From an uncultured Bacteroidales bacterium (GTDB taxonomy: Bacteria > Bacteroidota > Bacteroidia > Bacteroidales > UBA932): a stretch of 64,000 nucleotides of DNA. Positions 20,002 to 30,346 of the stretch are shown here, one piece after another. Each line of letters opens with the position of its first letter. Positions within the stretch are counted from its first letter, which is position 1. Below the pieces are notes generated by a model. The model saw only the letters and a program-made list of their open reading frames with translations, was not told the DNA's origin and did not search any database. The translations under genes were made by a program, and so were the position numbers. The stretch is taken from positions 1 to 64,000 of the forward strand of contig ONWU01000008.1 in the NCBI GenBank assembly GCA_900321655.1. Reading direction: 5' to 3'.

Positions 20002-20045
20002 AAACGCTTGCCGAGGCGTCAGACAAAACGTCGCAGCAAGCGTTT
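20002..20045 (-). terminator. Intrinsic terminator of the nine-gene phosphate operon
   Basis: AAACGCTTGC (20002-20011) and GCAAGCGTTT (20036-20045) form a perfect 10-bp stem. Read on the minus strand the stem ends in GCGTTTTTTGCGTTTT, a U-rich tail, 20 bp after the hppA stop. Confidence 0.85.
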
Positions 20046-20065
20046 AGAGGCTAAAGTGCGGGCTG

Positions 20066-22273
20066 TCAGTGCAGCATAACCGTAAGGCCGGCCATGACGA
20101 TGGAGACCATGCTCATCAGCTTGATGAGGATGTTCAGGGAAGGGCCGGAGGTGTCTTTGAAGGGATCTCCCACCGTGTCTCCCACGATGGTGGCCTTGTG
20201 GGCAGGAGAGTTCTTGCCGCCGAAATTGCCTTCTTCCACAAACTTCTTGGCATTGTCCCAGGCGCCGCCGGAATTGGCCAGGAAGATGGCCAGCACGAAG
20301 CCGGCTCCGAGGCCGCCGGCCAGCAGGCCGATGACGCCGGCAGGGCCCAGGATGACACCCACCAGCATGGGCACGACGATAGCCAGGATGGAGGGAAGAA
20401 TCATTTCCTTCTGGGCGGCTTTGGTGGAGATGCGGACGCAACTGGTATAGTCCGGTCTTCTCTCCCCTTCCAGGATTCCCTTCATTTCACGGAACTGGCG
20501 GCGTACTTCCACCACCATCTTGGAAGCGGCCCGGCCCACAGCGTCCATCGTGAGGCCGCAGAAGAGGAAGGCCATCATCGAGCCCACGAAAACGCCCACC
20601 AGAACCATCGGGTTCATCAGGGTAATATCGTAATACTCAACTATATCCGTAATGGAGGCCGACAGAGTATCCACCGTGCGGTCCCCTACTTCCAGAACGG
20701 TTTTTCCAATGTGGCTAAAGCCGATTTTGAGTTCTTCGATGTAGGAAGCCAGCAGGGCCAGGGCGGTAAGGGCGGCCGATCCTATGGCAAAGCCCTTGCC
20801 GGTGGCGGCAGTGGTATTGCCCAGGGAATCCAGCACATCCGTCTTTTCACGGACGGAAGGATCCAGTTCGCTCATCTGGGCGTTGCCGCCGGCATTGTCT
20901 GCGATGGGGCCGTAGGCATCCGTGGCGAGGGTGATACCCAGGGTGGAGAGCATACCCACAGCGGCAATGGAGATGCCGTAAAGACCCAGGCTGAGGGTGC
21001 TGGTGGAGAAGACGAAACCGGTGGCGCAGCCGTAGGCCAGAAGGATGGCGATGGCAATGGTAATCACCGGGATAGCCGTGGAGCGCATTCCCAAGCCCAC
21101 GCCGCTGATGATGACGGTGGCCGAACCGGTTTGCGCGCTGGAAGCCAGCTTGCGGGTGGGACGGTAGGAGTGGGAGGTGTAGAATTCCGTCACCTTGCCC
21201 ACGATGACGCCGGCAGCCAGGCCGCTGAGTACGCTCAGGGACAGTTGCCACCACTGCGGCAGACCGTTCTGCCCGTCGAAGCCCAGCAGGTAAAACACAC
21301 CGAACGCGGCTACGGCAATGAGGCTGGCGCTAAGGTTGGTACCCACGCTCAGAGAGCCCAGGAGGTCTTTCAGGGTGGCCCCTTCCTTGGTGCGCACGGC
21401 AAAAATACCCAGGATAGAAAGCACAACGCCGATGGCCGCGATAACCATAGGGGCCAGGATGGCTTTCATCTGGATGTCCGTTCCCTGGGTAAAGAAGGCC
21501 GATGCTCCGAGGGCCATCGTAGCCAGGATGGAGCCGCAATAGCTTTCGTAGAGGTCTGCCCCCATGCCGGCCACATCTCCAACGTTGTCACCTACGTTAT
21601 CGGCAATGGTAGCCGGATTGCGAGGATCGTCCTCGGGGATATCCTGCTCCACTTTTCCAACGATATCGGCCCCCACATCGGCCGCCTTGGTGTAGATGCC
21701 GCCGCCCACGCGGGCAAAGAGCGCCTGCGTGGATGCACCCATTCCGAAGGTGAGCATCGTGGTGGTAATCACTACCAGGGTCTGGGCGGGCGTCACTTCC
21801 TCAACGAACGCGTTCAGGACCACCCACCAGATGGAGATATCCAGAAGGCCCAGTCCCACCACGGTGAGGCCCATCACGGCGCCGCTGCGGAAGGCGATTT
21901 TAAGGCCTGCGTTAAGACTGTGCATGGTGGCATTGGCCGTTCTTGCACTGGCATAGGTGGCCGTTTTCATTCCCACAAAGCCCGCCAGGCCGGAGAAGAA
22001 ACCGCCGGTCAGGAAGGCAAAGGGGACCCAGGGGTTCTGCACCCCGAAGCCATATGCCAGGATGGCAAAGAAGACGGCCAGTACAAGAAAGACGATAACC
22101 ACCACCTTGTACTGCTGTTTGAGGTATGCCATAGCACCCTCGCGCACGTACTGGGCAATTTCCCGCATCGTGGGGGTTCCTTCGCTCTCTTTGTACATCT
22201 GCCGGAAGAAAATCCAGGCAAACAACAGCGCCAGCAGCGCCGCTGCCGGTACCAGATAGAATAAAGGGGTCAT
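20066..22273 (-). CDS. hppA: Membrane-bound ion-pumping pyrophosphatase
   Basis: A 735-residue protein with about 16 transmembrane helices that couples hydrolysis of pyrophosphate to export of Na+ or H+. The active site is in YTKAADVGADIVGKVE and ADNVGDNVGDVAGMGADL, with a second acidic cluster in the C-terminal part (GDTVGDPFKDTSGPS). The motif GNTTAATGKG carries Ala where K+-independent enzymes carry Lys, so it should be K+-dependent. Ion choice (Na+, H+ or both) cannot be settled by eye. It is the last gene of a nine-gene run, 21 bp after mgtC, and is followed by a strong terminator. Confidence 0.96.
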   Translation of the reverse strand: MTPLFYLVPAAALLALLFAWIFFRQMYKESEGTPTMREIAQYVREGAMAYLKQQYKVVVIVFLVLAVFFAILAYGFGVQNPWVPFAFLTGGFFSGLAGFVGMKTATYASARTANATMHSLNAGLKIAFRSGAVMGLTVVGLGLLDISIWWVVLNAFVEEVTPAQTLVVITTTMLTFGMGASTQALFARVGGGIYTKAADVGADIVGKVEQDIPEDDPRNPATIADNVGDNVGDVAGMGADLYESYCGSILATMALGASAFFTQGTDIQMKAILAPMVIAAIGVVLSILGIFAVRTKEGATLKDLLGSLSVGTNLSASLIAVAAFGVFYLLGFDGQNGLPQWWQLSLSVLSGLAAGVIVGKVTEFYTSHSYRPTRKLASSAQTGSATVIISGVGLGMRSTAIPVITIAIAILLAYGCATGFVFSTSTLSLGLYGISIAAVGMLSTLGITLATDAYGPIADNAGGNAQMSELDPSVREKTDVLDSLGNTTAATGKGFAIGSAALTALALLASYIEELKIGFSHIGKTVLEVGDRTVDTLSASITDIVEYYDITLMNPMVLVGVFVGSMMAFLFCGLTMDAVGRAASKMVVEVRRQFREMKGILEGERRPDYTSCVRISTKAAQKEMILPSILAIVVPMLVGVILGPAGVIGLLAGGLGAGFVLAIFLANSGGAWDNAKKFVEEGNFGGKNSPAHKATIVGDTVGDPFKDTSGPSLNILIKLMSMVSIVMAGLTVMLH

Positions 22274-22294
22274 AGTTTAGTGCTCGTTCTTGGG

Positions 22295-22924
22295 TTAATT
22301 CATTTCTTCGATGGTAAAGCCGTCCAGGCTATCCATCAGGTTCTTTATTGTGGTCAGGTAATCTTTTTGGCGAAGGCGGAGGGTAAGATGGACTTTCCCT
22401 TCCTGAATGGCGTAGGTTTCTACGTTGATGCGCTGCTGCTTGAGGAGCTGGGGAAGCGTCGGGAGGTCATAGGGTTTGCCGGGAATCAGCGTAAGGTCTA
22501 CCACTTTCTCGGTGTAGTGGAGGTTTACAAAATGCATCATCTCCAGGCAGAGTACCGTCAGGAGGGTGGCGGCTATGGCCACGGGATACATTCCGTCTCC
22601 ACAGGCCAGGCCGATGGCCGCTGCCACCCACAGGCCGGCGGCGGTGGTGACACCACGGACCACATTGCGCTGGAAAATGATAACGCCGGCGCCGATGAAA
22701 CCGATGCCGGAAACGACCTGCGCAGCCACACGCGCGGCATCGTGCTGCTTGCCCTCAAACGCGAATTCCGAAATAATCATAAACAGGGCACTGCCCAGGG
22801 CCACGATAAAATGTGTCCGCACACCGGCCTCCTTGGCGCGGAATTCCCGCTCCATACCAATGAAGCCGCCCAGCAGGCCGGCGGCCACCAGTCGGAAAAT
22901 CAATATCCAGTCAAAATGTTCCAT
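22295..22924 (-). CDS. MgtC/SapB-family membrane protein
   Basis: A 209-residue protein. The start MEHFDWILIFR is chosen because the upstream ATG would lie before a possible promoter box. It has four or five N-terminal helices with the family motif GGFIGMEREFRAKEAGVRTH and GIGFIGAGVI, and a C-terminal ACT-like soluble domain of about 75 residues. MgtC proteins help cells under low Mg2+ and in Salmonella affect F-ATPase and phosphate signalling; the role of Bacteroidota members is untested. It is flanked at 21 bp on both sides by DASS and hppA. A TATTTTTG box at 22939-22932 could give a secondary promoter for mgtC-hppA. Confidence 0.88.
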   Translation of the reverse strand: MEHFDWILIFRLVAAGLLGGFIGMEREFRAKEAGVRTHFIVALGSALFMIISEFAFEGKQHDAARVAAQVVSGIGFIGAGVIIFQRNVVRGVTTAAGLWVAAAIGLACGDGMYPVAIAATLLTVLCLEMMHFVNLHYTEKVVDLTLIPGKPYDLPTLPQLLKQQRINVETYAIQEGKVHLTLRLRQKDYLTTIKNLMDSLDGFTIEEMN

Positions 22925-29595: not shown

Positions 29596-29596
29596 T

Positions 29597-30259
29597 TTAC
29601 AGGCTTCGTTTGATGGACATAACGGAAAGCTGGTCTGCCACCTTGACGGCGGCGGTGGAAAGGTCCTCTATGTGGAGGGCGAAGTAACGCAGGTGGAATT
29701 TCTCACTCAGCTTGAGCTGTGACATCTCGTGGAAAACCGTACGCTTGATGCCCTGGGACAGCTTGACGGCCTGCTTGTCATAGAGGTATACCCGGTGAAT
29801 GGTCTCGCTCACCTTGTCCGGCTCCGAGAAATAGGCCTTGGTTCCGGGGATGGAGGCCTCTACCGCCATGACCGCCAGTTCTGCCAGCTTGACAAACTCC
29901 TTGTTCAGAGATGCCGGCACGTGGGGAGACTCTATTTCGAACTGGATGAGGTCGTTACTCAGGGTGGAAAGGATGTGGTCGTAGCGCTCCAGAAGGCGCA
30001 TGATGTCTCCGCGGTAACGGATAAGGGACCCGCGGGCGTAGAGCATATTCTCTATATCCCGCCGGAGGGCGCCGGCCTCCGTTTCTGCGGTGGCCATGGC
30101 CGACAAGGTGCGGGAGAAACTCTCCTGATCATTGTATAGGTAACTCCTTACTCCCTCCTTGAAAAGGATGAGAGCAGTGTCCACGGTGCTGAGGAGTTTT
30201 TCTACGGCCTCTGCGAACATCCGTGGCCTGCTTGCAGAGAAAATTCCGAACAGTTTCAT
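29597..30259 (-). CDS. DUF47/PhoU-like phosphate-transport regulator
   Basis: A 220-residue all-helical cytoplasmic protein starting MKLFGIFSASRPRMF. It fits the TIGR00153/DUF47 family, a PhoU-like three-helix repeat with acidic metal-binding clusters. Members are normally encoded next to PiT transporters and control them. It is the first gene of the nine-gene operon, has a good promoter 24 bp upstream, and lies 1 bp before the PiT-LuxR gene. Confidence 0.85.
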   Translation of the reverse strand: MKLFGIFSASRPRMFAEAVEKLLSTVDTALILFKEGVRSYLYNDQESFSRTLSAMATAETEAGALRRDIENMLYARGSLIRYRGDIMRLLERYDHILSTLSNDLIQFEIESPHVPASLNKEFVKLAELAVMAVEASIPGTKAYFSEPDKVSETIHRVYLYDKQAVKLSQGIKRTVFHEMSQLKLSEKFHLRYFALHIEDLSTAAVKVADQLSVMSIKRSL

Positions 30260-30283
30260 ACGCTTGCGGTTAGTTTGCCAACC

Positions 30284-30314
30284 CAAAGGTAGAAACTATT
30301 CGGAATCTCTACAA
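30284..30314 (-). promoter_or_regulatory. Promoter of the nine-gene phosphate operon
   Basis: Minus-strand TTG (30314-30312), exactly 20 bp, then TACCTTTG (30291-30284), the full Bacteroidota consensus. The DUF47 ATG is 24 bp further on. The -33 element lies inside one arm of an inverted repeat (see next entry). Confidence 0.7.
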
Positions 30315-30346
30315 GCTATTCTTTCGCCTGATGGGTTTTTGTAGAG
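30307..30346. promoter_or_regulatory. Inverted repeat overlapping the -33 element, candidate operator
   Basis: CTCTACAA at 30307-30314 and TTGTAGAG at 30339-30346 are perfect 8-bp inverted arms separated by 24 bp. One arm contains the -33 TTG of the operon promoter and the other sits about 30 bp upstream. The only T-run (30347-30353) is on the plus strand, where no gene could use it as a terminator. Confidence 0.5.

Follow-up and report, generated by a model that had tools for sequence, protein, structure and literature searches.

Phosphate and its condensed forms are served by several described systems, against which a nine-gene cluster can be compared; this cluster lies on the minus strand of the window, meaning the whole stretch of DNA analysed here (64,000 nucleotides, positions 1 to 64,000 of contig ONWU01000008.1, assembly GCA_900321655.1, from an uncultured Bacteroidales bacterium). 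In the yeast PHO/VTC system, comprising the SPX-DASS protein Pho91, the PiT transporter Pho89 and the VTC tunnel polymerase, the DASS, PiT and triphosphate tunnel fold classes all serve phosphate or polyphosphate; the cluster, however, is bacterial, includes a porin and lipoproteins, and neither an SPX domain nor a polymerase was identified in it. UhpT and the plastid triose-phosphate antiporters take a phosphorylated substrate in and orthophosphate (Pi) out, being alike in the exchange proposed below, but their fold is unrelated and their substrates are organic phosphates. The archaeon Haloferax volcanii grows on polyphosphate supplied from outside, which it uses via a membrane-bound or intracellular enzyme, although the abstract names neither an importer nor an operon (PMC13318637). 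According to the same source, microbial polyphosphate metabolism was considered in 2026 to be intracellular cycling only. In 2012, according to PMC3440374, there were no data on the presence or role of inorganic tripolyphosphate (PPPi) in cells, though specific tripolyphosphatases exist.

The cluster runs from 30259 down to 20066 and encodes, in this order, a DUF47 protein, a PiT-fold protein with a LuxR-type helix-turn-helix (HTH) domain, a porin, a lipoprotein-type protein with a lamin-tail domain (LTD), gene 5 (g5), a CYTH protein, a DASS-family carrier, MgtC and the membrane pyrophosphatase HppA. With about even confidence, it is read here as an operon acquiring condensed inorganic phosphate, that is, tripolyphosphate or polyphosphate. 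Gene order and conservation, the replacement of CYTH by a Ppx/GppA gene in one genus, the CYTH active site, the DASS substrate site and the loss of PiT motifs were computed; the substrate, its direction and the exchange partner are what we infer. Short polyphosphate or PPPi would enter via the OprO/P-type porin and likely be taken through the inner membrane by the DASS carrier, acting as an exchanger, probably against Pi, and CYTH would likely split the imported chain into pyrophosphate (PPi) and Pi. In the window's lineage only, HppA would draw an ion gradient from the last phosphoanhydride bond, this pump being an add-on and not part of the core. No dedicated bacterial polyphosphate importer and no operon with the same gene set was found among the open-access papers listed, judged by title or abstract opening, most subscription papers lying outside this scope. 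As far as searched, the operon is undescribed, although its families are known except for g5; its layout, with porin, carrier, hydrolase and regulator, follows the plan of nutrient operons, and what appears new is this plan for a substrate with no known dedicated system, the function being predicted.

Conservation and makeup of the gene set

The earlier note on this DNA, made from the sequence alone, had proposed a phosphoanion theme, which is borne out by a set conserved in related genomes. Counted over 61 loci carrying g5, the window included, a DASS gene is present in 55, and each of these 55 has a triphosphatase-type gene, which is CYTH in 53 and Ppx/GppA in 2. This count leaves aside the short duplicates L011-L030 and L061-L072, L076 (longer as L106), L105 (only part of g5) and L085-L096, included in the collection because of their CYTH or HppA. 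The other partners among the 55 loci are the porin (50), LTD (47), DUF47 (43) and PiT or PiT-HTH (42), so that DUF47 and PiT-family proteins are linked to the set, and the rarer ones are MgtC (22), an SdiA-regulated/Phytase-like gene (21), an unnamed protein of 470 amino acids (10) and HppA (8), all neighbour counts being lower bounds as several loci are cut by contig edges. Most of the set is kept in relatives, while hppA and mgtC, which the note had counted in, are not supported as core members and are regarded as lineage-specific.

Within the window's genus the genes are ordered DUF47-PiT/HTH-porin-LTD-g5-CYTH-DASS, and in distant genomes of the phylum mostly g5-CYTH-DASS-DUF47-PiT-porin-LTD-SdiA-LTD; a shared set despite a changed order argues for selection on the set, and the core of the cluster is kept together in other classes of the phylum. 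Gene 5 occurs in 32 of 120 relatives, 27 of them within the window's genus, counting its own genome, and the remaining 5 in different families of that order, and proteins 83-94% like g5 carry the source names Candidatus Cryptobacteroides, Tidjanibacter and Rikenellaceae. Further out, g5-like genes were found in 13 of 395 genomes spread across the phylum and in 15 of 150 relatives of genome G133, and source names put relatives of the distant g5 form in Ignavibacteria and Melioribacteraceae. Scanning species genomes with the regulator as query yielded ten Bacteroidales/Bacteroidia loci, whose genes follow the same order up to the contig limits, four of them with a ruminant stomach origin in their record titles, and PADLOC gave no matches with three of the proteins.

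The association between g5 and the carrier is close, as operon-type DASS (at least 57% identity, E 6e-190 or better, the next match having E 1e-25) occurs in 32 of the 120 relatives and g5 (at least 72%) in 31, with 30 in common and the three exceptions at contig ends (Fisher p 9e-25, kinship ignored). Compared with 24 loci of the same genus, the window's proteins have median identities of 94% for g5, 93% for CYTH, 88% for DASS (a value that includes an ordinary paralogue in L052) and 45% for the regulator, and four-fold sites are 48-68% different (55% in g5). Recent transfer as the cause of the similarity of g5, CYTH and DASS was ruled out, their four-fold sites being 54-59% different over the 24 loci; high identity with diverged four-fold sites therefore indicates strong purifying selection on the enzymes and the carrier. 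In one genome of the set (G026) the operon start occurs twice, on the two contigs L037 and L058, as a second copy or from mixed strains.

The porin (26547..27941, minus strand, as are all features of the operon; Porin_O_P PF07396, 6.6e-32, 111.6 bits) shares its family with OprO and OprP of Pseudomonas, a selectivity for PPi or polyphosphate being putative in the operon protein. It is followed by the lipoprotein-type LTD protein (25695..26522; PF00932, 4.8e-10). In L073 (11085-12947) and L074, a gene for 620 amino acids follows the porin where LTD sits in other loci, the L073 protein having a divergent InlB B-repeat domain. After DASS, an unnamed protein of about 920 amino acids is encoded in two of the order's families (L038:656-3406, L041), the L038 copy being without a Pfam match. 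Another unnamed protein, of 470-490 amino acids, is tied to CYTH or DASS in L036 (11944-13398), L091 (6268-7764), L093, L031, L055-L060 and L075; the two copies scanned gave no Pfam match, and in L091 and L093 it adjoins CYTH with no g5 or DASS.

Tunnel proteins, carrier and regulator

The CYTH protein, a triphosphate tunnel metalloenzyme (TTM; 24555..25031; PF01928, 3.7e-15), has as closest solved structures 3typ and 2fbl (NE1496; E 9e-18), which we take to be NeuTTM, the inorganic tripolyphosphatase of Nitrosomonas europaea. As described in PMC3440374, NeuTTM acts specifically on inorganic triphosphate and has a Tyr28/Lys52 dyad. ExExK, the Tyr/Lys dyad and ExE are common to both proteins, but the operon CYTH is encoded among transport genes, next to a second, predicted tunnel protein. 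Throughout the operon CYTH proteins (46/46), ExExK, Tyr29, Lys52, RxR, KxR and ExE are invariant, with E4/E6/K8 as the ExExK of strand 1 and E118/E120 as the ExE near the C-terminus. The aromatic position of thiamine triphosphatases (W/YxRxR) is Thr37 in all 46, and no HF motif, typical of the cyclases, precedes ExExK in the window's protein; by the motif rules that separate class IV cyclases and thiamine triphosphatases from other TTMs (PMC8233210), it is therefore neither of the two. CYTH has the intact active site of an inorganic tripolyphosphatase, which is its predicted activity, and the earlier suggestion of a small CYTH enzyme able to cleave PPPi agrees with this.

The replacement of CYTH by a Ppx/GppA gene is the best single pointer to inorganic tri/polyphosphate as the substrate class, because this is what the CYTH triphosphatase and the exopolyphosphatase family have in common. 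In L097 the order is g5-Ppx-DASS-DUF47-PiT-porin-LTD, and L106, from the same genus, has g5-Ppx-DASS at a contig end; the Ppx/GppA protein of that genome matches Ppx-GppA at 5e-55. The JGI label 'exopolyphosphatase/guanosine...', given to 12 of the 120 proteins listed as related to the distant g5 form, was putatively carried over from Ppx neighbours or fusions. A candidate g5-CYTH fusion (P0002) was rejected, as its CYTH part is without the first residues, including ExExK, which probably reflects a deletion or an assembly join. Another pair of CYTH and a carrier was seen in L092 (7754-9523), where the neighbour is a 589-amino-acid permease with CitMHS and TrkA_C domains.

Gene 5 (25035..25673; 212 amino acids) has no family over cut-off in Pfam/NCBIfam scans and no CYTH match at E 0.1, and phmmer against the PDB sequences returned only PPR-repeat matches, treated as noise. 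Its AlphaFold2 model (pLDDT 91.7) forms an eight-stranded tunnel, and the Foldseek and VIA matches of the model are triphosphate-tunnel enzymes; outside the CYTH family as defined by PF01928 and ExExK, g5 has ExRxF in place of ExExK in 36/36 sequences. The prediction is thus of a further triphosphate-tunnel protein besides CYTH, from an unnamed family. The basic half of the tunnel would be kept and the metal-binding ExExK lost, for which reason g5 may be a binder, a chaperone or an altered enzyme for PPi, PPPi or polyphosphate, acting beside CYTH and DASS. The plant TTM1 and TTM2 resemble it in having the tunnel fold with no ExExK, and these prefer PPi (as given in PMC8233210); g5 differs in matching no named family over its cut-off.

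The carrier (22946..24550) belongs to the DASS/SLC13 family (TIGR00785, 209.6 bits over a cut-off of 198.6; Na_sulph_symp). Its residue counts refer to 45 rows, which leave out the ordinary paralogue of L052 and the later loci L097-L106. Both SNT motifs, which make up the substrate and Na+ sites of a Na+-coupled cotransporter, are replaced, by SATT[VA]K at 193 and SK[TN][IM]R at 440: the first column reads SAT in 44/45 (PAT in L083) and the second SK[TN] in 45/45. Lysines K441 and K485 are present in 45/45, K198 in 44/45 (Arg in L083) and R444 in 44/45 (Gln in L052), whereas all four residues are missing from the ordinary paralogue in L052, whose first SNT is intact. As described in PMC7553777, the exchanger LaINDY has Arg159 in the Na1 site, His392 in the Na2 site and His401 nearby, and these residues are conserved among exchangers and missing from cotransporters. 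The HMMER alignment to 6wtw places K198 on the Arg159 column, R444 on the His401 column and Gly435 on the His392 column, the identity of 6wtw as LaINDY and the LaINDY residue numbers being taken from a constant offset of 3. Lys or Arg stands at the Arg159 column in 45/45 and Arg at the His401 column in 44/45.

With a single DASS sequence, the best solved-structure matches are the chloroplast proteins DiT1 and DiT2.1, which show Arg and His at the two aligned columns. Chloroplast DiT proteins transport by exchange. Since the SNT motifs are lost and a basic residue occupies the Na1-surrogate column, Na+ coupling is not expected; the operon DASS is predicted to be a Na+-independent exchanger with a cationic substrate site, and the two further invariant lysines, K441 and K485, suggest a more highly charged substrate. 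It is like LaINDY and the DiT proteins in its basic residue at the Na1-surrogate column and its best match to DiT1, but unlike them in having SATT and SK[TN] for SNT, the extra K441 and K485, and a predicted phosphoanion substrate.

At the head of the operon, the DUF47/PhoU_div protein (29597..30259; PF01865, 4.6e-9, 36.4 bits), of the PiT accessory regulator type, precedes a protein of 545 amino acids (27958..29595) in which PHO4 (PF01384, 41.5 bits, cut-off 33.7) and the LuxR-type GerE domain (PF00196, 25.1 bits, cut-off 23.5) are found together. Its AlphaFold2 model (pLDDT 82) has a membrane domain, a long coiled coil and an HTH, and the only Foldseek matches under 0.001 are two chains of 6l85, a sodium-dependent phosphate transporter (5e-4 and 8e-4, prob 1.0), with LuxR-type domains among the weaker ones. 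The transport motifs of PiT proteins are GAN[D] and P-x-S-[TS]-[ST], both present in 6l85. Besides its PiT profile and fold, the window's protein has neither motif; among the PiT-HTH rows, the GAN type occurs in 1/31 (L044) and PxS in 0/31, whereas the separate PiT of the distant loci has two GAN-type motifs in 11/11, PxS in 10/11 and no HTH match. The likeness to PiT transporters with DUF47 is in the PiT fold and the DUF47 neighbour, and the difference is in the missing motifs and the LuxR-type DNA-binding domain. The protein is predicted to be a transcription regulator derived from a transporter, a degenerate PiT fold joined to a DNA-binding domain. The earlier note had listed it as a sensor; its makeup as a PiT-fold protein with a DNA-binding domain had gone unseen there, as had the predicted second tunnel protein. 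In L034 (5183-6148) a fusion of 321 amino acids joins DUF47 directly to a LuxR-type HTH, the PiT part being absent, which suggests that DUF47, PiT fold and HTH work as one switch; DUF47 and the PiT-fold/LuxR protein would respond to phosphate at the membrane and control the operon accordingly.

Pyrophosphate, polyphosphate and competing explanations

HppA (20066..22273; PF03030, 1.3e-265) matches the H_PPase profile over its full length (residues 13-727, 883.6 bits) and carries the NCBIfam label 'sodium-translocating', and MgtC/SapB (22295..22924; PF02308, 1.1e-38) precedes it. HppA is found in 93 of the 120 relatives and in 381 of 395 phylum genomes, and as a conserved partner of the operon it was ruled out, standing at 8/55 loci in spite of this abundance. 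In the DASS tree of 45 rows it lies beside the operon in 8, the supported branches requiring at least 2 changes, and the separate PiT is confined to one clade. Among the phylum positions listed for CYTH and HppA, compared by eye, no CYTH match adjoins HppA. A CYTH homologue directly precedes hppA, with no g5 or DASS, in L085, where it lies behind the peptidase gene also found ahead of the operon in the window, and in L086, which belongs to a different family; CYTH precedes mgtC in L094, and genome G016 carries two hppA genes, one of them in the operon.

In the window's genome (82% complete), neither PPK1 nor PPK2 nor a family I or II soluble pyrophosphatase was detected. As HppA is the only pyrophosphatase detected there, PPi from CYTH likely goes to it in this lineage, as an add-on. 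PPK1 occurs in 0/21 operon-bearing genomes of the genus against 6/17 chosen genomes with no operon (p 0.004, kinship ignored), and PPK2 in the 21 gave two weak partial matches only. These comparisons covered 51 genomes for PPK1 and 38 for PPK2, chosen from genomes already examined, with a completeness of at least 90% in 17/17 genomes lacking the operon and in 15/21 having it, and G022, which has only an operon-like CYTH, was not included. Keeping the operon while showing neither polyphosphate-making enzyme fits an outside source of polyphosphate, within the genus.

The competing explanations differ in the substrate, in its direction or in the role of the pump. A doubtful but serious one is orthophosphate homeostasis, where DASS and PiT/DUF47 would move or sense Pi, or exchange it for another anion, and CYTH or Ppx would clear internal PPPi or nucleotide by-products. 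The frequent DUF47 (43/55) and PiT-type (42/55) genes agree with it, as do the two GAN-type motifs kept by the separate PiT of distant loci (11/11) and the clean-up role proposed for specific tripolyphosphatases in PMC3440374; yet for internal polyphosphate neither PPK1 nor a clear PPK2 is present in the genus's 21 operon genomes, a clean-up enzyme needs no tie to a carrier (55/55) or porin (50/55 loci), and the invariant DASS lysines are absent from the ordinary paralogue. Uptake of an organic polyphosphate (inositol polyphosphate or nucleotide), trimmed outside by the lipoproteins and then met by a CYTH acting on organic triphosphate, is unlikely: CYTH is without the aromatic and HF motifs that serve organic substrates, Ppx/GppA takes its place in L097 and L106, and 'Phytase-like' is a family label only, although such a lipoprotein-type gene is present in 21/55 loci. 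A histidine-phosphatase gene lies about 3.4 kb upstream of the operon in the window, near it in L001 and directly upstream in L052, which would suit organic substrates; it is present, however, in 3/61 loci, with differing flank lengths. These genes, of branch 2 (acid phosphatase/phytase type; PF00328 in the window), are at 33687-34997 (minus strand) in the window, 4566-5873 in L001 and 15027-16187 in L052, the last on the operon's strand.

Export or synthesis, with two tunnel proteins making or loading polyphosphate for secretion by the carrier, has a parallel in the yeast VTC polymerase but seems very improbable, as CYTH keeps a hydrolase active site, its swap partner belongs to a hydrolase family, and an outer-membrane porin with lipoproteins would fit uptake better. 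Barely credible is the full loop that the earlier note had drawn, in which HppA, pumping Na+ at the expense of PPi, drives a Na+-coupled DASS importer, all as one unit. hppA is indeed last in the operon in the window and in 7 other loci of the 55, and also in the contig fragment L087, CYTH directly precedes hppA in L085 and L086 (both lacking g5 and DASS), and no other pyrophosphatase was detected in the window's genome; nevertheless, HppA was not found beside 47/55 operons, some cut by contig ends, and the DASS half of the loop is unlikely, the SNT motifs being lost and the Na1 column holding lysine (K198) where exchangers have arginine (Arg159 as Na+ surrogate).

Several observations also weigh against the acquisition of condensed phosphate. 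The Ppx swap is confined to one genus (2 genomes) and possibly to one event, and Ppx/GppA enzymes can also act on pppGpp. CYTH homologues occur in 94/120 relatives against 32 with g5, so CYTH has other settings, and the TM-scores of g5 to its Foldseek matches are just about 0.4-0.5. In the carrier, the His392 column (435) is Gly or Ala in 43/45, with one Ser and one His (L083); the profile search puts DiT1 first but the Na+ cotransporters NaCT and NaDC3 second and third, before DiT2.1, and the alignments to solved structures are distant (best E 1.7e-26). The operon is patchy, with g5 in only 13/395 phylum genomes, PPK1 is present in 9/13 distant operon genomes, and the window's own genome is only 82% complete. 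Moreover, neither HppA nor a soluble pyrophosphatase was detected in four operon genomes of the genus (G011, G030, G043, G069), so PPi must be consumed otherwise in them.

A fuller picture, put forward tentatively, is an undescribed condensed-phosphate system in several classes of one phylum, with a porin and lipoproteins, a tri/polyphosphate:orthophosphate antiporter derived from dicarboxylate exchangers, a pair of tunnel proteins (an active tripolyphosphatase and a new chain-handling family) and a phosphate transporter turned membrane transcription factor, HppA having been added in the window's lineage so that polyphosphate may be an energy source too. If condensed phosphate is acquired in this way, a tripolyphosphatase tied to a carrier and a porin would gain a physiological role and a candidate importer would be named, and the role of PPPi in cells and the use of polyphosphate beyond intracellular cycling could both be put to a direct test in Bacteroidota of the rumen and the environment. 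A further consequence would be that a transporter fold was reused as a one-component transcription regulator and, with HppA, that external phosphoanhydride bonds could be harvested as an ion gradient, making polyphosphate a source of energy besides phosphorus.

Transcription signals and neighbouring genes

The minus-strand run of nine genes was reproduced with gaps of 1, 16, 24, 21, 3, 4, 21 and 21 bp, and none of the genes has an internal stop. The promoter expected upstream is present (30284..30314, TTG-N20-TACCTTTG), ending 24 bp upstream of the DUF47 start, in what we take to be the Bacteroidota -33/-7 form, whereas the sigma-70 scan was uninformative (7 sites seen against 5.1 expected). 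Motifs of this type occur in 0.95% of 2000 random 200-nucleotide pieces of the window, and before DUF47 the full -33/-7 motif is found in 9/32 loci and the -7 element in 20/32. The strong terminator downstream (20002..20045) was likewise confirmed, with -22.7 kcal/mol, z -3.8 and 0/200 shuffles equally stable, and the gene after the operon has its own promoter element TATCTTTG (19951-19958).

A possible internal -7 element, TATTTTTG (22932..22939, by motif match), lies 7 nucleotides upstream of the mgtC start; such an element stands 4-7 nucleotides upstream of mgtC in 10/22 loci, and the full -33/-7 in 2. On account of this element in the window and the 10/22 loci, mgtC-hppA may have its own transcription start besides the operon promoter, as a caveat to a single transcript. 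Directly downstream lie two adjacent genes (17356-20000, minus strand), the first a GDSL-like hydrolase (PF13472), and the same pair follows hppA in L001, L033 and L044. Elsewhere in the window, 46477-49350 (minus strand) encodes a protein of 957 amino acids with a long N-terminal part followed by an MscS-type channel domain.

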